Assembly (NCBI RefSeq): GCF_019550795.1
Contig: NZ_CP080545.1
Span: 3,506,001-3,570,000 of the forward strand
Length of the DNA stretch: 64,000 nucleotides
Direction of reading: 5' to 3'
Source of the DNA: Paenibacillus sp. sptzw28
Lineage (GTDB): Bacteria; Bacillota; Bacilli; Paenibacillales; Paenibacillaceae
A model generated the notes under the pieces. The model was given only the letters and a program-made list of their open reading frames with translations. It searched no databases and was not told the origin of the DNA. Shown here piece by piece: positions 44,868-59,709 of this stretch; the first letter of the stretch is position 1, and every line of letters begins with the position of its first letter. The position numbers and the translations under genes were made by a program.

Positions 44868-45399
44868 GGTCTGCCGGACGGTCGATACGCTTTTCGCCCA
44901 CCTTTTCCTTTTGTCCGTCATAAATCGGCATTCCCATATTGCGGATTACTGTGTCCTTGGTGTATATGCAAGGAAAAATTGAAAGATGAGTTCTCGCTAA
45001 ATTGAACACAACAACTAATATCAGGTGACATTTCAAAAAAAGTAACCGGGGATTCGTTTCCCGGTCTTTTTTTTTCGACATGAATGTACCGGCATAATGT
45101 ACCAACGCAAGAAACTAGCCAGAAAATATTGAGAACCAGTTTATTCTAAAAGAGAAGACCTTGTTAAATCAAGGTTAACCGGGTCCTGTCCAAGAAAACA
45201 CCTGATTTACACCGTACATTTTTGCGTCCAAGCGTTTGTGATATCCATGCAATATACTGTATTACCATGATGTACAGGCTTTAATCGAGATCGCGGGGGG
45301 ATGGCTATATCGTTAACGCTCCGATTGAAAACTGGAACCAAGCGATCAAAACCATAGTGAAAAGCTTTGGAATAAATTTAACTTGGAGGTGTGAACTTA
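44868..45399. other. Intergenic region with terminator, no confident gene
   Basis: About 530 bp between the AraC gene and the AT-rich repeat-protein gene. It contains a terminator at 45041-45075. A short open stretch near 45299-45390 (DGYIVNAPIENWNQAIKTIV) reads like protein but lacks a start, stop context or recognised family; it may be a gene fragment or chance. Confidence 0.4.
45041..45075 (+). terminator. Rho-independent terminator
   Basis: ACCGGG and CCCGGT arms, with T9 after, about 175 bp beyond the AraC gene. The long 3' distance suggests a trailing untranslated region or a lost downstream gene. Confidence 0.7.
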
Positions 45400-46650
45400 T
45401 TGGCGGTATTATCCACCGGACCAATTAATAATAGTTCTGTAACTGGTGTAAGGCCTACACCGTTTGTCACCATCATAATCGATAATCGGAATACAGTAAG
45501 CTCCTCGGAAATATTGATTGAAGGTTATTATTTAAACGGCACCAGAAACATGTACGTACTAGAATTGTTATCAGTGGAGCCAAATGCTGTTATAACCAGG
45601 AAATATTACGCAAATTTCGATGCTTTTGAATTTGTCTTTACCACAAGCGGAGCTGCCGAGAGCGAAACTCAAGTTTCTGTATGGGGAAAAAATGCATCGG
45701 GGCAATTGGTAGCTGCCCATCGAATCGTTTCGGATGAGCTCTTAGGTTCGACAGCAGCAGGTCCTCCAGGTCCTCCAGGACCACAAGGGCCTCAAGGACC
45801 TCAAGGACCTCAAGCGACCCCTACATTTCTTTATGTAACTAATGTTGGCGATGATACTGTAGAAATCTATAATATTACCGTGCCAATAGCTCCTGTTCGA
45901 GTAGGTGAGTTTAATGGAGGGAATTTAGTTAGTCCTAGGGGATTGGCGATTACAGGTACCACTCTTTACGTAGGAAATGGAAATGATCCTAATGTCGATA
46001 TTTATGATATTGCCATTCCTACAGATCCTGCTCATTTAGGGGAGTTTCATGGAGGAGATATATTTTTCTTCGGGTCTTTTGATTTGGCGGTTACAGGTAC
46101 CACTCTTTATGTAGCTAATATTAGTTTTAGCACTGTAGCTATCCATGATATTACCAATCCAACGGCCCCTATATTTGTTGGGGAGTTTGGGGCAGGTGAG
46201 ATACCATTTGCCACCACTGGATTGGCGATTACAGGCACTACTCTTTATGTAACGAATTTGGGTAACACAGTAGAGATCTATGATATTACCAACCCGACGG
46301 CTCCAGTGCATGCAGGAGGGGTTAATGGAGGAAATTTGGTTAGTCCTCTCGGATTGGCAATTACAGGAACCACTCTATATGTAGCAAGTAGTGGGGACAA
46401 CAATGTAGTTATTTATGATATTACAAATCCTGCTGCCCCTGCATTTGAAGGGACGTTTGGTGCAGGGGATTTAAATAGTCCTGTTGGCTTGGCTATCACG
46501 GGTACTACTCTTTATGTATCAAATTCTAACGATAGCACTATTGAAGTTTATAATATAACCAATCCTACAGCTCCCGTCCGTATAGGAGAGTTTGGTGCAG
46601 GGGATTTAAATGCCCCTAACTTTTTGGCTATTTTTACGATAGTAGACTAA
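45400..46650 (+). CDS. Collagen-like surface protein with six-bladed repeat domain (LVIVD/propeller-like)
   Basis: 416 residues from TTG 45400; GGAGG (45385-45389) is spaced for it, while GTG 45391 is too close. The N-terminal domain (about 1-120) contains VTIIIDNRNTVSSSEILIEG and other blocks seen in exosporium/collagen-like proteins. A short collagen tract GPPGPPGPQGPQGPQGPQ follows. Six repeats of about 43 residues then carry LYVxN, VEIYDITNPTAPV and GLAITGTTLYV, an LVIVD-like beta-propeller pattern. The gene is visibly more AT-rich than its neighbours. There is no signal peptide, as for spore-surface proteins. Likely spore-surface or adhesin-like; binding target unknown. Confidence 0.82.
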   Translation: MAVLSTGPINNSSVTGVRPTPFVTIIIDNRNTVSSSEILIEGYYLNGTRNMYVLELLSVEPNAVITRKYYANFDAFEFVFTTSGAAESETQVSVWGKNASGQLVAAHRIVSDELLGSTAAGPPGPPGPQGPQGPQGPQATPTFLYVTNVGDDTVEIYNITVPIAPVRVGEFNGGNLVSPRGLAITGTTLYVGNGNDPNVDIYDIAIPTDPAHLGEFHGGDIFFFGSFDLAVTGTTLYVANISFSTVAIHDITNPTAPIFVGEFGAGEIPFATTGLAITGTTLYVTNLGNTVEIYDITNPTAPVHAGGVNGGNLVSPLGLAITGTTLYVASSGDNNVVIYDITNPAAPAFEGTFGAGDLNSPVGLAITGTTLYVSNSNDSTIEVYNITNPTAPVRIGEFGAGDLNAPNFLAIFTIVD

Positions 46651-50219: not shown

Positions 50220-51200
50220 ATGACCGTTTATTCATTCGCGATAACTCTGCTCGCGCTTCTCGCGGCAGCTGGTGCCGGGTATAAGATGTCGGAACTGGTT
50301 ATTCATATTAGAACCTTTGGAGATGAAGACATTTACCGGTTTGAGACGGATGCTGGCACACTGGTGCGGGAAGATGTCGAGCGGCTCAGCCGGGAAGAGG
50401 CTCAGATCGAATCACCTTTCGGATATCAGCTTCGGGGCTGGTTCTTCCCAGCGCAGCGGGATGAAGGGAAAGCCGTCGTTCTCGTTCATGGCGTGACCTC
50501 TTCACTCATTGGATCGCTCAAATATATGTACCTGTTTCGCCGCAGAGGCTTTCACGTCCTCGCCTACGACCACCGGCGGCACGGACTGAGCGGCGGAAGC
50601 TCGACAACATTCGGCTTTTACGAGAAATACGATTTGAAAGCTTGCATCGATTGGCTGTTATCCAGGTGCGGACAAAATTGCAGGATAGGCGTATTGGGCG
50701 AGTCTATGGGGGCGGCCACGGCTCTGCAGCATGCGGCCATCGACAGGCGTGCGGCTTTCTACATTGCAGACTGCTCGTACTCAGACTTGACGGCGGAGCT
50801 GAAATACCGGCTGAAGGAAGATTTTCGTATGCCTCCATTTCCTATGCTGCAGCTGGCCAGCCTGTTTGCATGGCTTCGTTCGGGGTTCCGTTTCAGGTTC
50901 AGCCATGTTTCACCCGTACGCGATGTGGCAGATGTGGAAACGCCTGTATTATTTATCCACGGGGACGAAGACCGCTATATCCCAAAGGAAATGACTCTTC
51001 AGCTTTATGGCGCGAAGAAAGGCTTTAAGCGATTGCACCTGATGCGGGGTGCGGACCACGCCCAGTCTCTGCGCACGAACCGCGAGGAGTATGACTGCGT
51101 CGTGGGTACGTTCCTGGCGGAGCTCGGCCTCGCGGAACCGGCTGATTCCCCGGATATTTCCTCTCTGCAGCTTACTCCTCCATCCCCTGTGAACACATAA
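50220..51200 (+). CDS. Alpha/beta hydrolase (YqkD-like), membrane-anchored
   Basis: 326 residues. One N-terminal hydrophobic helix (ITLLALLAAAGAGYKMSE) then an alpha/beta hydrolase fold: oxyanion VLVHGVTSSL, nucleophile Ser in GVLGESMGAATAL, Asp in FIHGDEDRYIP, His in GADHAQSL, a complete catalytic triad. GAGGGGG lies before ATG 50220. Likely a lipase or peptidase of unknown substrate with its active site facing outward. Confidence 0.88.
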   Translation: MTVYSFAITLLALLAAAGAGYKMSELVIHIRTFGDEDIYRFETDAGTLVREDVERLSREEAQIESPFGYQLRGWFFPAQRDEGKAVVLVHGVTSSLIGSLKYMYLFRRRGFHVLAYDHRRHGLSGGSSTTFGFYEKYDLKACIDWLLSRCGQNCRIGVLGESMGAATALQHAAIDRRAAFYIADCSYSDLTAELKYRLKEDFRMPPFPMLQLASLFAWLRSGFRFRFSHVSPVRDVADVETPVLFIHGDEDRYIPKEMTLQLYGAKKGFKRLHLMRGADHAQSLRTNREEYDCVVGTFLAELGLAEPADSPDISSLQLTPPSPVNT

Positions 51201-51242
51201 CACAAGCAAACTGCCGCGGGCCGACCGGCAGTTTGCTTGTGT
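51200..51242 (+). terminator. Strong hairpin terminator
   Basis: A 17-bp perfect stem (51200-51216 with 51226-51242) immediately after the hydrolase stop. The T-tract is short. Confidence 0.75.
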
Positions 51243-51307
51243 CAGAGGACATTCATCCAATATAAGGTCACATCCGAAACAATCCCAAGGTATGAATTAA
51301 GAGGGGC

Positions 51308-52252
51308 TTAATCGAGGTTTATTTGCTCGATCCATTCGGTGCGCTTGCTTGTCATGCCTGCCAGAGCGGAATCGGCCGCCGAACTCTCCGATTGGAGCTG
51401 ATTTGCGACAGTTCTGACTTGATGGATCGCCTTAAGCAGTTGATCATGTGCATGTTGAATGCGTCCCTGGACAACCCAGTCGACGATGAGTCCGTCGAAC
51501 CAGTAGTCAGCCATCTTCAACATTCCGCCTGTCTCGATTTCAATATCGACGCTGCGCTGCAAGTCTGCCAGTTCATCTCGAAAATCGAGCATCAGGTGAT
51601 TCGCATTATGAATAAACTGCTTTGCATCATCGATGTGGTTATGTTTCAGATGTGTACTGACAATGCCGCCGCCGCCCCACAAGTCCCACTTGCCCCAGCC
51701 TTCCGCTTTCGACAAGCTTGTAGAAGCATCCTCTAGCGAAGCCAGGACGCGCTGACCAGCCCTCCATGCTTCATGAAACTCTTTAACAAGGATGGCCTGA
51801 TTCGCGATCTGCTCCTCCATTTCTGCCAGCTCGGATGATAAGAGTGAACTGCGGAGGGCGGATTCCTTCTCAGCCATCAGCTGGTCGTACTCTCGCTCGG
51901 CATTTCGGTAGTTTGCAAGATCGTCCCCGACCCGTTTTAAATCTGCCTCCAAATCTGCATACAGCTGCTTTGCTGCCTGCAGCTGCAGCGCTGCGGCAAG
52001 CACTTGCTGACGCTCCATCTCAAGCTGCTCTTCCTTACTTCGAAGAATCGTGTGAAACAGGTTGGTAAGCGACAGCCGGGTTAATTTATCGACATCGACC
52101 TGCTCCGATTCAAGCTGCAGTTCGAGCTGCGAAATGAGCCGCTCCTGCTCGCGCAGCCTTTTTTGCAGCTGCTCCCTTCTGCGTTCGGCCTTATTCAAGC
52201 GGAATTTGCCTTCCTTAGCTTCCGCTAACCGGCGGTGAAATGTATCTGTCAT
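51308..52252 (-). CDS. Coiled-coil protein of unknown function
   Basis: 314 residues from ATG 52252 (CGGAGG upstream). Residues about 10-180 are one long coiled coil rich in Glu, Lys, Gln and Arg (KAERRREQLQKRLREQERLI, LEMERQQVLAAALQLQAAKQ). A conserved-looking Gly/Trp patch follows (AEGWGKWDLWGGGGIVSTHL), then more helices. This arrangement is seen in uncharacterised Bacilli proteins. It follows the lasso exporter on the same strand, but a terminator lies between, so a functional link is not implied. Confidence 0.72.
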   Translation of the reverse strand: MTDTFHRRLAEAKEGKFRLNKAERRREQLQKRLREQERLISQLELQLESEQVDVDKLTRLSLTNLFHTILRSKEEQLEMERQQVLAAALQLQAAKQLYADLEADLKRVGDDLANYRNAEREYDQLMAEKESALRSSLLSSELAEMEEQIANQAILVKEFHEAWRAGQRVLASLEDASTSLSKAEGWGKWDLWGGGGIVSTHLKHNHIDDAKQFIHNANHLMLDFRDELADLQRSVDIEIETGGMLKMADYWFDGLIVDWVVQGRIQHAHDQLLKAIHQVRTVANQLQSESSAADSALAGMTSKRTEWIEQINLD

Positions 52253-52356
52253 TAATAATTCCTCCGTTTCATGGATTAAGTGGGAATTCATGTATTACTG
52301 CTTTTTATTACGTTAGCTTGCGTGTTCGGTTCCGGAGGCGGGGGGATTTTGAAATC

Positions 52357-52393
52357 AAAAAAAAAAAAAGCCCGCCAACTAAGTGAACGGGCC
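52357..52393 (-). terminator. Rho-independent terminator of the lasso operon
   Basis: GCCCG and CGGGC arms around a 13-nt loop, followed on the minus strand by a 12-T tract, right after the exporter gene. Confidence 0.88.
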
Positions 52394-52431
52394 ATTGATC
52401 GTTATTCATGGTTATTTTGCGATAAGTGTTC

Positions 52432-54234
52432 TTAAACGTTTACTCCCGCTTGATATCCCAGCAGCTTGCTGAACGTTCCGGTTGTTTCTCTTGAAAGCTG
52501 GTGATATCCACCCTGCTGGATCAACCGTCCGCGGTCCAATACGATCACCTGGTCAGCATTGCGGATCGTCGACAACCGGTGGGCAATGACGATAATCGTC
52601 ATCTGGCCCTTGAGCCGCTCCAGTGCTTCTTGAATCTTCGCCTCATTCTCACTGTCAAGGCTGCTGGTGGCCTCATCCAGCACGAGTATGGCTGGCTTTC
52701 TGAGAATCGCCCGCGCCAGGACGATCCGCTGCCTTTCCCCGCCGGAAATTCGAAGCCCCCGGTCTCCGAGAACAGTGTCCAGCTCCTGAGGCAGATTCCG
52801 GACAAATTCCTCTGAAGCCGAGAACCTTAAGGCCTCCCACATGTCTTCCTCGCTTGCATCCGGTGCAGCTACAGACAGATTTTCTCTGACGCTGGCATGG
52901 AACAGGAAAGGATCCTGCGAGACATAGCTGACGGATCTCCGCAATGCGAAAGCCGTTTCTTTGACGAGGGGACTTCCGTCTACCAGGACCTCGCCTTTCT
53001 CAGGTTCATTAAGGCCTATCAGTATATCGATCAAGGTGCTTTTTCCGGCACCGGATTTGCCGACGATAGCTGTCATACTGTTAGCGGGTATGCAAAGACT
53101 GATATCCTGAAGGGCATAAGAGGAATGATTCCTGTCGTAGCTGTAATAAATATGACGGCATTCAATCCCCTGCTCGATGCGTAAGGATCGGCCATTGGTA
53201 TGGATATCATCCAAATCCAATTCCTTGTTCGCGTCACATTCCTTCTGAAGAGCCAGCAAACTTGTAAATGCCGGCATCGATTGGGCGATCTGTTCCCAGT
53301 TGGCCTGCAGCATGGCGAACTTCGGCCACAAGCGGGAGAAGATAATGACGATTAATAACAGCTGTCCGGCCTGTACGTCGAACACCTCGAAGGATACGTA
53401 AACGAATAAGACGATCAGTATGATGGACACTATTTTATAGTAATATTGCGAAGTGGATTGCAGTCTCGCGAATTGAACGAAATTATTTTCCATCCGATAA
53501 CACAGCCCGCGAAATAAGGACAAATGCTGCCCTTCCATCATATTGCTTTTAATATCTTTAATGCCGTTGAAATGGTCGGTGATTCCGGCCATAAAGCTCT
53601 GTGACAGCTCTGTCGTTTGATCCCCTATTATTTTCGATTTTCGGATAAATTTACGAGCATAAATTGCCAGCGTTAAACCGCAGATAAGAATAACAGCGGT
53701 AAGCTTCGCCGACAGGAAGAACGCGAAGCCGATCTGCACAACCGTGAACAGAATCGTCGTCATAATTCTCAGGGTGAGATAGGTTCCCGTACTGACGCGT
53801 GTCAGCTCATTCGTCATAATATGATTGAAATCCGATTTTCTTTTTCTCAGGAAAAAAGACCACTTGGCCTGCAGTAAGGACTGATATACTTCGAGCCTCA
53901 AATGACGTACAAAGCCCTGTTGAATGGTCAAATTCATATTCGTTTGATTGCGCTGAAGCTGTGCCTGGACTAACAACAATAGAATGAAAATTCCAAGAAT
54001 AACGGGCAGCTTCATGCCTTGCGGCAATTCTGCAAGCGGCTTGGCCAATGCGGAAATATACGGCACTCCGGCAGTACTCAAGCTGAAAAGGCCGATCAGG
54101 CTGAGCATCGGAGCTAACAGATAGATTCCAACGCCTTCCATCAAGCTTATTACCGTCATTCCAATTAAATTGATATACAGCTTCAGACCCGCAAAATCGT
54201 GCAGCTTTCTGATGTAAACAAGTATTTGAGCCAC
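52432..54234 (-). CDS. Lasso-peptide ABC exporter (permease-ATPase fusion)
   Basis: 600 residues from GTG 54234 (AAGGGGAG upstream). Six membrane helices (about 1-320), then the nucleotide-binding domain: Walker A VGKSGAGKST (about residue 390), signature ISGGERQRIVLARAI, Walker B ILVLDEATSSLD, H-loop IAHRLST. A half-transporter that would homodimerise. It lies downstream of the lasso precursor and cyclase genes and corresponds to the D protein of lasso clusters: it exports the peptide and confers immunity. No peptidase-C39 domain is present, so leader removal is not done here. Confidence 0.9.
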   Translation of the reverse strand: MAQILVYIRKLHDFAGLKLYINLIGMTVISLMEGVGIYLLAPMLSLIGLFSLSTAGVPYISALAKPLAELPQGMKLPVILGIFILLLLVQAQLQRNQTNMNLTIQQGFVRHLRLEVYQSLLQAKWSFFLRKRKSDFNHIMTNELTRVSTGTYLTLRIMTTILFTVVQIGFAFFLSAKLTAVILICGLTLAIYARKFIRKSKIIGDQTTELSQSFMAGITDHFNGIKDIKSNMMEGQHLSLFRGLCYRMENNFVQFARLQSTSQYYYKIVSIILIVLFVYVSFEVFDVQAGQLLLIVIIFSRLWPKFAMLQANWEQIAQSMPAFTSLLALQKECDANKELDLDDIHTNGRSLRIEQGIECRHIYYSYDRNHSSYALQDISLCIPANSMTAIVGKSGAGKSTLIDILIGLNEPEKGEVLVDGSPLVKETAFALRRSVSYVSQDPFLFHASVRENLSVAAPDASEEDMWEALRFSASEEFVRNLPQELDTVLGDRGLRISGGERQRIVLARAILRKPAILVLDEATSSLDSENEAKIQEALERLKGQMTIIVIAHRLSTIRNADQVIVLDRGRLIQQGGYHQLSRETTGTFSKLLGYQAGVNV

Positions 54235-54265
54235 GTTGATCTCCCCTTATAGGCTGTTAAAGAGG

Positions 54266-54302
54266 GAAGCCCTTATACATTATTATCATGTATAAGGGCT
54301 TC
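54266..54302. repeat. Perfect intercistronic hairpin between precursor and exporter
   Basis: A 15-bp perfect stem (54266-54280 with 54288-54302) and a 7-nt loop, just after the precursor stop. It lacks a strong T-tract on the minus strand, so it probably attenuates read-through or protects the precursor mRNA end rather than fully terminating. Confidence 0.7.
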
Positions 54303-54312
54303 TTGAGGAATC

Positions 54313-54468
54313 CTATGATTCCGGTGGTTTACCGTGTCCGGGGTGTTCAGGAGGGGTATGTGGGTTGGCGTCCATGCCTTTGAAGTCAATCCATGTACCT
54401 TTTCCCGCCATCGTCATGCTGACATCAAGCGTTTCCAAAGAAGGTTGTTTCCACGCTTTCTTTTCCAT
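54313..54468 (-). CDS. Lasso-peptide precursor (51 aa), paeninodin-like leader
   Basis: Not an obvious ORF by length, yet AAAGGAGGTG stands before ATG 54468. Leader residues 1-20 are MEKKAWKQPSLETLDVSMTM. W6-x-x-P9 fits the YxxP recognition motif, LETLDV matches paeninodin-like leaders, and Thr19 is the conserved Thr at -2. Predicted core 21-51 starts AGKGTWIDF. Ala1 and Asp8 would form an eight-residue macrolactam ring; Gly2 is also typical. The tail of 23 residues is rich in Pro, His and Gly, ends in Ser, and has two Glu and one Asp. It lies 29 bp after the cyclase stop. Ring size and cleavage site are inferences. Confidence 0.85.
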   Translation of the reverse strand: MEKKAWKQPSLETLDVSMTMAGKGTWIDFKGMDANPHTPPEHPGHGKPPES

Positions 54469-54497
54469 TGGTTTCACCTCCTTTCAAGTTGAGCCTT

Positions 54498-56435
54498 TTA
54501 TGCAAATTGTTTTAAAAACCGGTAGGCAATAATACTGCGCATCAGAAATCTTGCGTCCGGATCATAAGCAAGCTCCGGACTCGGCGAAACTCCGATTTTT
54601 TCAATAGAATCCTTGATCTGGCGGATATTTAAAAATTGAGATGAGGCGGAGTCGGTGCAAATTTTCCGAGCCTCTTCAACGAAGCTGCTCCATGAATGGA
54701 ACATGCGGTGAACCCAATCAGCTCCCTGCACACCGCGAATACGTTGATTTAAGCGGACTTTATCGGGCAAATAGGTTGCGGTCGCCCTTCTAATCAGCGA
54801 ACGGTCGAAACCGTTCTGCACATACTGCCCTATTGGCACCGACAAGCAGAATCGGACGACTCTCGGATCGCAGGTTGGATCCCTCTCCCAAAGGCCATAA
54901 CGCAGGGATAATTTGGTTCCCGATGCCCCCTGCATATTCGAGAGGGCCAAATTCTTGAAATGATTTTCTCTGGACTCGAACGCATCAACCGAGGAACTGC
55001 CGAGCCCGACATCATGGTTTTGAAGCTTCTCAAAAACATTCGTGCTTCTCGCAAAATCCGGATTGATCAATACCGGGATTTCCGTATGGCCGTGAGTACC
55101 GTCGGACCGGTCCAGAAATGGAAAAGCGGATTTCGTTATGTAGGGCAGCAGCCGGGACCTGCCGATACCAGTTCTTCGACTATAATGCTTTAACTCGCGG
55201 TAAAATCGAATCCACTGCATTTTCCTTATGAGAAGAATATAGTAGTCGATGGCCGGGCCCCAAGATATCGAGTGGTTCCCTTGAGCTCCTGTTAATAGAA
55301 CCCCGATTCCTTCCTGCTGCGCTTTCTCGAAGATGCCTTTAATCCAAAATGAATTCTCAAAAAATTTATAAGGAGACTCCAGAAGCTCGAGCCAATCATC
55401 AATGTCCGTGAACGAGTTTCTATCCGGGAAATCCAAATAATTATCCGTTATATTTCCCACATGCTGTACCGTGTCCTGTATATAAGGACTCTCATTCGCC
55501 ACACTGCTTCTCCCGGTCCAATCTATGAAATCCGATGGCGGAATATAACTGTAGGTATGTAACGTTTTCCCTTCATTCCTAAGAGGCGAAGAGGCAAAAC
55601 TGACGACAGCGCCGGAATCCAGCCCTCCGCTGAGTGTAGCGCCAACCTGCCGGTGCGTCCGAAGCTTGGACGTAACGGCTTCCTGAAAAACATGGCGAAA
55701 CGCTTCTTCATACTCCCCGTCTGATTGCAGGTTCAGTTTCTCCACCGGTGCCGCTAAAGAGCCGTATGCCTTCATTGTCATTTTGCCGTCCGCCACTGTC
55801 ATCGTGTGGGCAGGCGGTAGCTGGTTGATTCCCTTATATACGGTGGAGTGAAAATCCACAGTATCCAATACGATCGGTATTGTCAGGAATTCGGCAAACC
55901 ATGACTCGTTAAGCTCCTTCTTCACTCCGGGTAAACTAAGAAGCGGAGAGATTGTCGTGCAGAAAGCAAATTGCCGCTGGCCGCCATGATAATACAGAGC
56001 GCGGTTTCCGACTAAATCCCTCGCTCCGAATAGAAGACGTTTCTTCTCGTCCCAAATAACAAACGAGAAATCGCCGACCAAATAATTCGGAGCCGCTTCT
56101 CCCCACTTGCGGTATGCGAGCAAGATGAGCTTACTGTCCGGCATCCGGTTTCTATCGAAGGGTTCCACCTGCAGCCTGCTGAACAGTTCATTTCGATTGT
56201 CAATGATCGCATCTGCGGTAATGGCCAGCCGATGAGTTTCGTCGAAATAAGGCAGCCGTTCACCGATAGACTCCGGAGTGATCCATTGCGTATGGCATCC
56301 CAAGAATACAGGACCGCTATGCCAGGCATTGGCGTCGTCGGCAGGATATCTCTGCAGTGCCTGCATCAGAGTTCCGCTTTCCTCTACAGAAACAGTCTCA
56401 CCGTGATAATTCAGAATTCCGACTATAGCACTCAT
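54498..56435 (-). CDS. Lasso-peptide cyclase (asparagine-synthetase homologue)
   Basis: 645 residues. N-terminal class-II amidotransferase-like domain (about 1-225, MSAIVGILNY: the nucleophile Cys2 is Ser, as in lasso cyclases that do not hydrolyse glutamine). The C-terminal Asn-synthetase domain has the ATP loop SGGLDSG at 269-275. Length and order match the PadeC/McjC-type C protein, which activates the ring Asp/Glu as an acyl-AMP and closes the macrolactam. Next to the precursor and ABC exporter. AGGAGG precedes the ATG. First gene of the operon. Confidence 0.9.
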   Translation of the reverse strand: MSAIVGILNYHGETVSVEESGTLMQALQRYPADDANAWHSGPVFLGCHTQWITPESIGERLPYFDETHRLAITADAIIDNRNELFSRLQVEPFDRNRMPDSKLILLAYRKWGEAAPNYLVGDFSFVIWDEKKRLLFGARDLVGNRALYYHGGQRQFAFCTTISPLLSLPGVKKELNESWFAEFLTIPIVLDTVDFHSTVYKGINQLPPAHTMTVADGKMTMKAYGSLAAPVEKLNLQSDGEYEEAFRHVFQEAVTSKLRTHRQVGATLSGGLDSGAVVSFASSPLRNEGKTLHTYSYIPPSDFIDWTGRSSVANESPYIQDTVQHVGNITDNYLDFPDRNSFTDIDDWLELLESPYKFFENSFWIKGIFEKAQQEGIGVLLTGAQGNHSISWGPAIDYYILLIRKMQWIRFYRELKHYSRRTGIGRSRLLPYITKSAFPFLDRSDGTHGHTEIPVLINPDFARSTNVFEKLQNHDVGLGSSSVDAFESRENHFKNLALSNMQGASGTKLSLRYGLWERDPTCDPRVVRFCLSVPIGQYVQNGFDRSLIRRATATYLPDKVRLNQRIRGVQGADWVHRMFHSWSSFVEEARKICTDSASSQFLNIRQIKDSIEKIGVSPSPELAYDPDARFLMRSIIAYRFLKQFA

Positions 56436-56488
56436 TGGATCCTCCTAGTGCGACTATCGTCCTGATTCAAAAGCTCTATCAGCTTCTT

Positions 56489-56509
56489 TATGATACGTAT
56501 TGTATCATA
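56489..56509. promoter_or_regulatory. Operator-like palindrome over the -10 of the cyclase promoter
   Basis: TATGATAC-N5-GTATCATA, perfect 8-bp arms, overlapping the -10 box (56499-56504) of the promoter below. A repressor site or, less likely, a hairpin. Confidence 0.55.
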
Positions 56510-56526
56510 TATTTCGAAAGATTCAA
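56499..56526 (-). promoter_or_regulatory. Sigma-A-like promoter of the lasso operon
   Basis: On the minus strand, TTGAAT (56526-56521) and TACAAT (56504-56499) with 16 bp between them, about 64 bp upstream of the cyclase ATG. Confidence 0.6.
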
Positions 56527-56555
56527 TACGCTTTCGGGGGGTCGTATTTAAAAAA

Positions 56556-56604
56556 CAGAAAAAAATTGAAAGGCCAACCGGAACAACAACTCCGGTCAGC
56601 CTTG
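56556..56604 (-). terminator. Rho-independent terminator
   Basis: AAGGCTGACCGGA pairs with TCCGGTTGGCCTT (one or two mismatches), followed on the minus strand by an AT/T-rich run. It isolates the lasso operon from the 96-residue orphan gene upstream. Confidence 0.7.
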
Positions 56605-56622
56605 TTTAAAAGTCGTATCGAA

Positions 56623-56913
56623 TTATGTTACATAGTCGAATCCTTCTTCATCGCCATTGATCGCGTTTATATAAATTTTTCTGACCAGGTCGATTCCTTT
56701 GACGGGAATAGCATATACAAGATCCCCGTCCTTTACTTCAAGAACCGGGGCACCGGAGATTTGCAGCATTTTGTTCAACTTATGTGCCGCTTCTTCGGGT
56801 GAGAGTTTCGGTCGTAGCGGAAAGTCTTGTTTATAATATCTAAAATAATTCACGGCATCGAATTGCACGAGCCTGCCTTTAGCCAACATGAATATTTTTG
56901 TCTTTAATGTCAT
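56623..56913 (-). CDS. Hypothetical 96-residue protein
   Basis: Family not recognised. GGAGAACGG lies ahead of ATG 56913. The middle (LRPKLSPEEAAHKLNKMLQI then SGAPVLEVKDGDLVYAIPVK) suggests a small helical-plus-beta domain. I compared it with the PqqD-like recognition element expected in lasso clusters, and the required pattern is not there. It lies just upstream of the lasso operon on the same strand but beyond a terminator. Confidence 0.6.
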   Translation of the reverse strand: MTLKTKIFMLAKGRLVQFDAVNYFRYYKQDFPLRPKLSPEEAAHKLNKMLQISGAPVLEVKDGDLVYAIPVKGIDLVRKIYINAINGDEEGFDYVT

Positions 56914-56995
56914 TGACCGTTCTCCTATCGTCTGCGCATCAAGCTTATGTTATGAAGACCGCATGACCAATTTAACAAATCCACCAAATAAACCG

Positions 56996-57484
56996 CTAGT
57001 AAACCAAAGTATATCCCAGCTCTTCCGGAAATGGAGGTTCAAAAACCAACATCCATTCTTTAAGTGTACTCTCAGGAATGTAAGCCGCTCCCGGAGGGAG
57101 TTCTGTATTTCTTGCCGCAAGGCGCGCTGTAAGATCCTCTGCTGGCGCATCTGCAAAGTGGATTTTAAACTCGGCCCCCAATTCCGCCGCACGCAGACGC
57201 ATATCGTCCCTCTGGCTGCGCACCCAAAATCCGAAGTCCAAAATTACATCCACGCCCAGTTCTAAAACCCGTGCGGCAACGTCCCAAAGCAGAGATTCCA
57301 CTAAATCGTGGCGCTCACTATGTCCAGTTTCGTTAACATCCTGTCCGAACAAACGAGTATGCCATTCATCAGGAGTAAGGCGAAGAGCCGAATATTTCTG
57401 TTCAAGCTGACGTGCTAGAGTGGTTTTTCCACTGCATGGAAGTCCAACCATTAAGTGAAGTGCTGCGATAATTCCGACCTCCAA
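56996..57484 (-). CDS. P-loop kinase/AAA_33-type ATP-binding protein
   Basis: 162 residues (start uncertain: TTG 57484 or the internal ATG before VGLPCSGKT). Walker A is GLPCSGKTTLARQL; DLVESLLWDVAARVLELGVD and VILDFGFWVRSQRDD form the substrate side typical of zeta-toxin/chloramphenicol-phosphotransferase-like kinases. Substrate unknown. Not HPr-kinase-like, so it is not the lasso tailoring kinase of paeninodin clusters. Confidence 0.75.
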   Translation of the reverse strand: MEVGIIAALHLMVGLPCSGKTTLARQLEQKYSALRLTPDEWHTRLFGQDVNETGHSERHDLVESLLWDVAARVLELGVDVILDFGFWVRSQRDDMRLRAAELGAEFKIHFADAPAEDLTARLAARNTELPPGAAYIPESTLKEWMLVFEPPFPEELGYTLVY

Positions 57485-57597
57485 TGCTTCGCGATCTTCA
57501 CAAAAAAGCTTCCGTAAAAGTCAATCTAATTATAGAACGAATGTTCGCGAAGTTCAATTATCAACAAGTGGGTAAACATTTCCTTGAAAATAAAAAC

Positions 57598-57624
57598 AAA
57601 AAGCCCGATAGCTCAGGCTCTTTG
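57598..57624 (-). terminator. Rho-independent terminator
   Basis: AAAGAGCC pairs with GGCTTTTT (one G-T pair) followed by a T-rich run on the minus strand. Ends the aldo/keto reductase gene. Confidence 0.7.
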
Positions 57625-57666
57625 CAATCTCTCAAACTATCATTTTCCGACGTTACGGTTCATACT

Positions 57667-58590
57667 CTATACCGCCGTAGAGGATTGGGGATGATCAACA
57701 TCGGCTAATACTGCAGCGCTTGCGTTGGCGCTTACCTGTTCGGGGCTTTTACAGCCCGGTATAACCGAAGTCACCACCGGATGCTTCAAGCACCATGCCA
57801 GCGCCCATGCAGCCATATCTACTCCTTGCGGGACTTCTTCCAGCCCAATCCGCTGCACTTCCTGCAGCTTTAATATTGTGCTCTCCCTGTCATGCCGATG
57901 GCGGACGTCAGTCTCGCCGAACACGGCGTCCGGCTTATATTTGCCGCTCAAATAGCCGCTGGCAAGCGGTACCCGTGCAAGTACGCCTAAGTCCTGCCGT
58001 TCGCACGAAGGGAAGACATCCTTCTCCGGCGCTTGATCAAGCCTATTATATACAACTTGTATCACCTTGGAACCCACCCTCGTTGAGGCATCCGTCTGAT
58101 GTACGTTTGTATTGCTGCCGATCGAGGTGCCTAGATGACGTATTTTGCCCGCCTGGATTTGTTTATCAAGCACACTCCACAATTCATCATTGTCAAAGGC
58201 TTCATTCGGGCCGGAATGGAATTGGTACAAATCGATATAATCCGTTTGCAGCGCCTTCAGCGAGTCATCAAGCTGTCTCACGACGTCATCCGCCTTGAAA
58301 TTATCCGTTCTTGTGAAGCGTTCATGAAAGTGATGGCCGAATTTGGTGGCAATGATCCAATCTTCCCGATTGCGTCTTTGCAAATAGCTGCCGATGAATG
58401 ATTCGGATAAATGATCTCCATAGCATTCGGCCGTATCGATCAGATTGATGCCAAGCTCGGCAGCCCGATCCAATATGGCGTCAACTTCAGACTGCGAAAA
58501 TTGCTGTCCCCATTCGCCTCCGAATTGCCAGGTGCCGACACCGATAACGGAAACTTTAAGCTCTGTTTTGCCAAGTCTGCGGTATTTCAT
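57667..58590 (-). CDS. Aldo/keto reductase, intact
   Basis: 307 residues. YRRLGKTELKVSVIGVGTWQ start; catalytic Asp/Tyr in LIDTAECYGDHLSE; Lys in IIATKFGHHF; His in DLYQFHSGPNE. The tail SVIPGCKSPEQVSANASA is the NADP-binding end. Intact, unlike the AKR at 11967-12865 of a different subfamily. NADPH-dependent carbonyl reduction; substrate unknown. Monocistronic. Confidence 0.92.
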   Translation of the reverse strand: MKYRRLGKTELKVSVIGVGTWQFGGEWGQQFSQSEVDAILDRAAELGINLIDTAECYGDHLSESFIGSYLQRRNREDWIIATKFGHHFHERFTRTDNFKADDVVRQLDDSLKALQTDYIDLYQFHSGPNEAFDNDELWSVLDKQIQAGKIRHLGTSIGSNTNVHQTDASTRVGSKVIQVVYNRLDQAPEKDVFPSCERQDLGVLARVPLASGYLSGKYKPDAVFGETDVRHRHDRESTILKLQEVQRIGLEEVPQGVDMAAWALAWCLKHPVVTSVIPGCKSPEQVSANASAAVLADVDHPQSSTAV

Positions 58591-58662
58591 CTTGAATCAC
58601 TCCCTTATATGAATTCACTTCCATTAAACGCTAATCGACGGGACAAGTCAAAAATAAACCGG

Positions 58663-59709
58663 CTAAGACCGGGCGTTCCGGTTACGGTACAGCAGATATA
58701 TGAAGAACGGAGCGCCTACCCCGGCTGTAAACACTCCGACAGGAATGTCATAGGGCATAAACGCCGTCCTTGCGATAAGGTCGGCAGCGACTACGATGAG
58801 CCCGCCGATTAATGCGGAGACCGGAAGGACGCCTTCGAATGATGGCCCGACTATTCTGCGGGTCATATGCGGTGCGATAAGGCCTATGAATGCGATTCCC
58901 CCGCCTACTGCGACTGCGCTTCCGGCAAGTGCCACACTAATCCACATCAATAAGAAACGCTGACGCTGTACGGCGCTTCCTAGGCCTGCAGCAATTTCGT
59001 CGCCCAGCTGCAGCACATTCACAATGCGCGCAAACACCATCGCGAGCGGTATGAAGATAACCGTCCAGGGAAGCATTGCCCTGACCATTTCCCAGCTTGT
59101 TCCATAGACGGTTCCGGTTAGCCATATGTATGCTTCGCTTGCCGAGATAATCGGACTTAATACAAGCATTACCTTCGTTAACGATACGAGCAAAAAGTTG
59201 ATGCCGATTCCAATAAGCACAAGCCGGATCGGTGTAACGCCTTTCTTCCATGCCATCGAATAAATGATAACCGATGTGACGCCGGCCCCTGCCATAGCTG
59301 CAACCGGGAGCCATTTGATGCTGACGGCACCGGAAAAATAGGTAAGGAAAGCGACAGCCGCCACGGATGCCCCGCTCGTAATTCCGATAATATCGGGAGA
59401 GGCGAGAGGATTGCGAATAATACCTTGCAGGATTGCCCCGGCTGCGGCTAGTGATGCCCCGACCAGAAAGGCCGCTATTATACGCGGCAGTCTCAAGGTA
59501 TGTATGACGATCGAATGGTCTTCGGTTCCCTTACCGAGGATCGTCTTTACCACGTCAACCGGAGCAATATTCATATCGCCCAAGCCCGTACTTATTATAA
59601 TGAGCGCCAGATTGAGCAGGGTTAAAGCTGCCGTGACCGTGAGTATTTTTGTATGCAGCTGCATCGCGGCACGCGGTTTGCCGGAACGAAGCTGAAATAA
59701 GGGCTTCAT
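58663..59709 (-). CDS. FecCD-family iron-siderophore ABC permease, second subunit
   Basis: 348 residues, nine to ten helices. LRLPRIIAAFLVGASLAAAG and GIIRNPLASPDIIGITSGAS are the FecCD family hallmarks, and AGVGAPFFIYLLYRNRNARS its C-terminal end. Start ATG 59709 overlaps the upstream permease stop by 4 bp (ATGA). Partner of 59706-60719. No ATPase gene is present in the locus, so a shared siderophore ATPase such as FhuC/YusV elsewhere is likely. Confidence 0.93.
   Translation of the reverse strand: MKPLFQLRSGKPRAAMQLHTKILTVTAALTLLNLALIIISTGLGDMNIAPVDVVKTILGKGTEDHSIVIHTLRLPRIIAAFLVGASLAAAGAILQGIIRNPLASPDIIGITSGASVAAVAFLTYFSGAVSIKWLPVAAMAGAGVTSVIIYSMAWKKGVTPIRLVLIGIGINFLLVSLTKVMLVLSPIISASEAYIWLTGTVYGTSWEMVRAMLPWTVIFIPLAMVFARIVNVLQLGDEIAAGLGSAVQRQRFLLMWISVALAGSAVAVGGGIAFIGLIAPHMTRRIVGPSFEGVLPVSALIGGLIVVAADLIARTAFMPYDIPVGVFTAGVGAPFFIYLLYRNRNARS

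Follow-up and report, generated by a model that had tools for sequence, protein, structure and literature searches.

The window analysed here, a 64,000-nucleotide stretch of the Paenibacillus sp. sptzw28 genome (positions 3506001-3570000 of a 6.1-Mb contig), contains a compact unit of three genes in the order lasso cyclase (C), precursor (A), and ABC exporter (D); the coordinates of these and other features are collected in Table 1. An initial annotation had placed a 51-codon open reading frame (ORF) with a ribosome site between the cyclase and the exporter, and had described its leader as paeninodin-like. Both calls are borne out: the ORF begins 29 nt past the cyclase stop and is followed by the exporter gene, AAAGGAGGTG stands about 8 nt upstream of its ATG, its leader carries WxxP, LDV, and Thr(-2), and its product scores 49.9 bits against NF033524 (lasso_PadeA_fam; curated cut-off, 27). 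The adjacency of cyclase and exporter to the precursor is that of a paeninodin-type cluster. The ORF is also conserved at homologous cyclase loci, with a precursor adjoining the cyclase in 52/52 rows of the tree described below. Given the NF033524 score, this placement beside every tree cyclase, and a core that is kept in three metagenome relatives, the ORF is more than a chance reading frame, and we conclude that it is a genuine paeninodin-family lasso precursor gene. As a peptide gene it is an ordinary member of its family; what is unusual is its genomic organisation and its ring size.

Table 1. Features of the window (window coordinates) and matches elsewhere on the same contig (contig coordinates, as marked)
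Feature	Position	Strand	Description
Exporter gene D	52432..54234	-	600 aa; PF00005 and PF00664; 66-68% identical to related double-cluster exporters
Hairpin between A and D	54266..54302	-	15 bp; -29.7 kcal/mol, z -4.15 against shuffles
Precursor gene A	54313..54468	-	51 codons; ATG 54468-54466, TAG 54315-54313; ribosome-binding site present
Core peptide	54316..54408	-	31 aa; predicted Ala1-Asp8 ring; 23-residue loop and tail, terminal Ser
Leader peptide	54409..54468	-	20 aa, from sequence; Trp at -15, WxxPxL, Thr(-2)
Cyclase gene C	54498..56435	-	645 aa; NF033535, 379.6 bits; PF00733 and PF13537
Inverted repeat	56490-56508		ATGATAC-N5-GTATCAT, perfect
Promoter-like site	56499..56526	-	TTGAAT-16-TACAAT, TG before second hexamer; 9/12 consensus match
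YpeB-like ORF	56623-56913		96 aa; YpeB C-terminal region, 25 bits (cut-off 303.55)
Collagen-like ORF	45391-46650		419 aa
B1 match (NF033536)	contig 4985564-4985818		only match in genome
B2 match (NF033537)	contig 4985105-4985488		first of two matches in genome
B2 match (NF033537)	contig 4976466-4976846		second of two matches in genome

The NF033535 score of the window cyclase lies below the model cut-off of 525, as do those of the genome's other two cyclases (411.7 and 409.0 bits), so this cut-off misses the lineage. By its alignment, the window cyclase is intact and not decayed: it keeps 99/99 near-invariant columns (those common to 50 or more of the remaining 51 rows). It also contains SGGLDS, which we take to be the ATP-binding motif.

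Several smaller elements surround the three genes. The hairpin between A and D is not terminator-like in a terminator scan and has no T run; the 75 nt after A folds at -17 kcal/mol or lower in 49/52 loci (by energy alone, unshuffled). Five promoter-like sites were observed in the region against 3.9 expected by chance, so the match upstream of the cyclase gene is weak and carries no statistical weight. The inverted repeat, which overlaps the second hexamer of this site, is possibly an operator; no repeat of the same form was seen upstream of the other cyclase genes compared. No Rfam match was found in 51000-58700. Elsewhere in the window, repeated GLAITGTTLYV segments come after a collagen-like GPPGPPGPQGPQGPQGPQ stretch in the 419-aa ORF.

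The core peptide and its predicted ring

The core, AGKGTWIDFKGMDANPHTPPEHPGHGKPPES, has 31 residues, with Asp at position 8, six Pro, and three His (positions 17, 22, and 25); the four His and seven Pro given in the initial annotation were a miscount. Its suggestion that these His residues bind metal is unsupported, and we reject a His metal site, since His17 alone of the window's three is invariant across the four Asp8 sequences described below. GHxH-like tail endings occur in many, not all, of the other units of the 24-row cyclase clade to which the window belongs. The long, Pro-rich tail proposed for this paeninodin-like precursor is supported. The proposed core length of 31 residues also stands; it is long but not exceptional here: cores span 20-41 residues in the 52 cyclase-linked precursors, five of which exceed 31, and 18-38 residues in the 119 parsed of 120 listed relatives (331 found).

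All of the cyclase-linked precursors (52/52) have Trp at -15, the leader residue that paeninodin-type RREs are described as reading, with Tyr replacement weakening binding (PMC13381572). Likewise, 52/52 end in Ser, including 15/15 units in which no kinase gene (K) lies within 1.8 kb downstream. Counting from position 7, the first acidic residue falls at position 9 in 51/52 and at position 8 in the window precursor alone, which thus departs from a trait of the compared members that is no formal rule. A single-sequence search with the precursor matched only itself, and relatives came from a profile search over 5.8 billion proteins, which found 331, of which 120 were listed and 119 parsed. Among the 119 parsed, the ring position is 9 in 115 and 8 in four, namely the window sequence and metagenome sequences P0061, P0071, and P0072, the latter three known here as precursor sequences alone; a further profile search yielded no fifth Asp8 member. 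All four share AGKG[TN]WIDFKGxDANxHTP and diverge beyond this motif. Because Asp8 and the core motif are kept in the three metagenome sequences, the predicted eight-residue ring marks a conserved subfamily rather than a mutation private to the window, which supports the Ala1-Asp8 ring put forward initially. According to a review, production in the systems tested drops strongly when the ring is altered by a single residue (PMC13352647), so the window cyclase, if it works, must have adapted to Asp8.

The window ring resembles AGKGTKYID (P0121) and HGAKGTIVD (L131) minus one residue. We considered whether the core was shuffled in from another cluster and claim no recombination, as the tree, which has an open fork at the window, places it firmly beside neither the P0121-type nor the L131-type ring. 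A further precursor, at locus L130 (G152:C16, 37% cyclase; excluded from the 52-row tree and table), has acidic residues at positions 4 and 10, not 9.

Distribution of B1, B2, and K

The window unit consists of C-A-D only. Neither B1 (leader-binding; NF033536) nor B2 (leader peptidase; NF033537) is present in the cluster, and no match to an HPr-type kinase K was found beside it, so the unit is not a self-sufficient paeninodin-type lasso cluster, a point that the initial annotation did not raise. Six-frame model searches of the whole genome gave the single B1 and two B2 matches of Table 1, none in the window; these genes lie about 1.42 Mb from the window unit, in two other lasso clusters of one region (L004) with the arrangements C-A-K-B1-B2-NT-D and ST-C-A-K-B2, the latter without B1. 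This region also has two K genes, none adjoining the window unit. The labels K, NT (nucleotidyltransferase), and ST (sulfotransferase) are our own names: K has weak HprK-related matches below cut-off, ST a below-cut-off NoeE match, and NT no NCBIfam match. The genome has three precursors over the NF033524 cut-off, and its three related cyclases share 100, 64, and 61% identity with that of the window. As the second L004 cluster is without its own B1, all three precursors would have to depend on the one B1 found. This B1 (L004:15541-15843) matches the solved paeninodin-type RRE chain 9x90_B (103.8 bits), presumably PbaB1.

The absence of B1 is judged by one model, NF033536, and a very divergent local RRE or an unrelated peptidase may be present. 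One could propose that the unit is self-sufficient, with an unrecognised local protein binding or cutting the leader in place of B1/B2. Candidates would come from uncharacterised neighbours, such as the upstream 96-aa ORF with its weak YpeB match and two window proteins about 6 kb away that we take to be of NlpC/P60 type. We regard this as most unlikely: none of these neighbours, the YpeB-like ORF included, was found at four other B-less units (L113-L116), where tblastn of 16 window genes matched only C, D, and, weakly, an AraC-type gene, and among the 62 cyclase-bearing genomes of the family sample described below, a B-less unit never occurs in a genome without B1 (0/62).

The closest cyclases found (68%) sit in double clusters of Paenibacillus lignilyticus (L042) and Paenibacillus sp. 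CF384 (L044), arranged ST-C-A-K-B1-B2-NT + C-A-K-D, whose second half matches the window unit; with small changes the same arrangement occurs in ten genus loci (L118-L127), two of them from the L042/L044 species. In a tree of 52 cyclases from 37 hand-chosen loci, the window cyclase falls in a 24-row clade (support 97/97). Within this clade, 11/24 units show no B1/B2 across the examined stretch (the window, L113-L116, L133-L137, and L139), where for L133-L137 and L139 the absence of B2 refers to BLAST of the fetched stretch only, and that of L134 extends just 1.9 kb upstream of its cyclase. The other 13/24 (L118-L127, L131, L143, and L144) each sit beside another cyclase in a locus with a single B1/B2 pair, and which pair owns B1/B2 there is a matter of interpretation. 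K is missing within 1.8 kb downstream in 7/24 rows, and D was not found within 3.5 kb downstream in 3/24 (L137, L143, and L144). Outside the clade, 3/28 rows have neither B1 nor B2 nearby (L138, L140, and L141) and another 3/28 have B2 only (L117, L128, and L129); B-less units are thus not confined to one lineage. A Fisher test of clade against lone status gives p 0.006, a value biased by the analyst's choice of loci to fetch. Excluded from the tree were a broken Peribacillus cluster (L048), distant matches (L046, L047, and L049-L057), and the second fragment of a split G014 cyclase; in addition, L132, L142, and L145 have a precursor and no cyclase in the stretch.

Might the window unit instead be a decaying remnant that lost B1, B2, and K and now makes nothing? 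The standard paeninodin genes are indeed missing, the ring is one residue shorter than in 51/52 compared precursors, and a comparison with eight relatives and four satellites found no synteny of the flanks, so a recent move of the unit is possible. Yet the cyclase and exporter are full length, with every near-invariant cyclase column in place; the ribosome-binding site, leader, and C-terminal Ser are undamaged; three further sequences keep the Asp8 core; and B-less units recur through the clade. Taken together, we consider decay unlikely. We also considered an empty site or recent insertion and claim no insertion event, as the flanks are not syntenic in any compared locus.

Within the genus, 16/22 genomes have a cyclase; of 47 cyclase rows, five are without both B1 and B2 within 12 kb, three more without B1 only, and two without B2 only (distances here and in the family sample below measured irrespective of contig ends; the 47 rows include a duplicate P. 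lignilyticus contig, L043, G194:C35, that is not in the tree). Every genus genome with such a row has both B1 and B2 elsewhere. Four double-cluster genomes (G045, G066, G121, and G077) each carry two cyclases but a single B1 over cut-off and a single B2. Cyclases were found in 62 of the 128 genomes of a family sample, and all of these (62/62) have a B1 over cut-off; 13/88 cyclases are without B1 within 12 kb, one of them having it 34 kb off, and cyclases outnumber B1 genes in 16/62 genomes, with the reverse in none. B1 is present in all 11 of the genomes that have a B1-less cyclase (hypergeometric p 4.4e-4), which is another way of saying that every cyclase genome has B1. Two genomes show reciprocally split clusters (G105:C1, about 1.50 and 1.62 Mb; G129:C2, about 0.39 and 0.55 Mb), in which one cyclase has B1 and no B2 within 12 kb and the other has B2 and no B1.

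Proposed maturation in trans

A lasso cyclase requires a free core N-terminus, so the window unit needs a leader peptidase, and as the sole family leader peptidases found lie 1.42 Mb away, maturation in trans is the best reading. We consider it likely that the three window genes (C-A-D) form a satellite lasso unit matured in this way, which probably borrows B1 and B2 from a place about 1.4 million bases distant in the same chromosome. Once the precursor was made, the RRE protein B1 (about 4.985 Mb) would bind its leader through Trp(-15)-x-x-Pro, and a B2 peptidase from 4.985 or 4.976 Mb would cut after Met(-1). The local cyclase, dedicated to the window core, would then link Ala1, through its amine, to the side chain of Asp8, closing the ring about the threaded tail; a kinase from about 4.985 or 4.978 Mb may add a phosphate to the C-terminal Ser; and the local exporter D would secrete the product. 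The calculated monoisotopic masses are 3291.55 for the linear core, 3273.54 for its cyclised form, and 3353.51 for the cyclised form carrying a phosphate.

Threading cannot be read from sequence, and some paeninodin-related pathways are described as yielding linear phosphopeptides (LPP, PMC13381572), so one may ask whether the product is a lasso at all, or whether its long tail stays unthreaded or the peptide is branched or linear. We judge this very unlikely, as the same source describes LPP clusters as having no cyclase (PMC13381572), whereas a lasso-type cyclase with an intact ATP-binding motif is present here.

For the clade as a whole, maturation in trans suggests a broader picture towards which we lean, with less assurance than for the window itself: the clade would have lost its own B1, B2, and often K, and one B1/B2 hub would mature dispersed C-A-(K)-D spokes, even across replicons, the window being a separated spoke with its own subfamily of Pro-rich cores with an eight-residue ring. 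A possible case of separate replicons is found in P. cellulosilyticus, where G067 and a 2.7-Mb plasmid (NZ_CP054613.1) match at 100% identity across 19001 bases of the B1/B2 cluster region. This plasmid shows a single cyclase place, and for the B-less unit of the species (L136) the 72,556 PLSDB plasmid records gave no near match; if both assemblies are of the same strain, hub and spoke are on different replicons.

The window unit can be set against several known systems. With paeninodin of Paenibacillus dendritiformis C454 (NF033524) it shares the WxxP leader, Thr(-2), C-terminal Ser, paeninodin-type cyclase, and ABC exporter, but the paeninodin cluster is described as C-A-K-B1-B2-D (PMC5067487), against C-A-D here, and the compared family members have ring residue 9, against Asp8. 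Its closest relative found is the second C-A-K-D half of the L042/L044 double clusters, with 68% identity in the cyclase and 66-67% in the exporter; that half is contiguous with B1/B2, whereas the window unit is 1.42 Mb away from them and without K. Citrulassin, with its distally encoded deiminase, is a precedent for trans action by an enzyme of a lasso pathway (PMC12971885), although the distal enzyme there is a tailoring one, and in the window case it would be the core RRE and peptidase. Pandonodin likewise has a long tail, its 18 residues being called the longest protease-resistant one (PMC7549694); unlike the window unit, it comes from a proteobacterial panABCD cluster with its own B. We found no report of B1/B2 sharing in trans in the open-access papers searched.

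Lasso genome mining usually demands cyclase, peptidase, and RRE together, and if satellites are functional, such filters miss their products, while one RRE-peptidase pair would naturally serve several cyclases. Such an arrangement would provide a natural test of RRE and peptidase tolerance for different cores, and of lasso pathway diversification. The window locus also supplies a conserved paeninodin relative with a predicted eight-residue ring.

Other arrangements were seen among the fetched loci. L145 (G113:C1:1776000-1795000) has B1-B2-K-D-NT with a 49-residue Gly/His-rich precursor core, in a genome with no lasso cyclase match at E 1e-60. At L142 (G011:C1:2244000-2262000), a long Gly/His-rich precursor adjoins B1-B2-K-D with no intact cyclase in the stretch; the cyclase unit of this genome (L141, C-A-K-D) is 34 kb away. 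Finally, L138 and L140, both without B1/B2 in the stretch, belong with L146 to a second group, whose 40-residue cores read LG[TD]GWK..DW..IGG...
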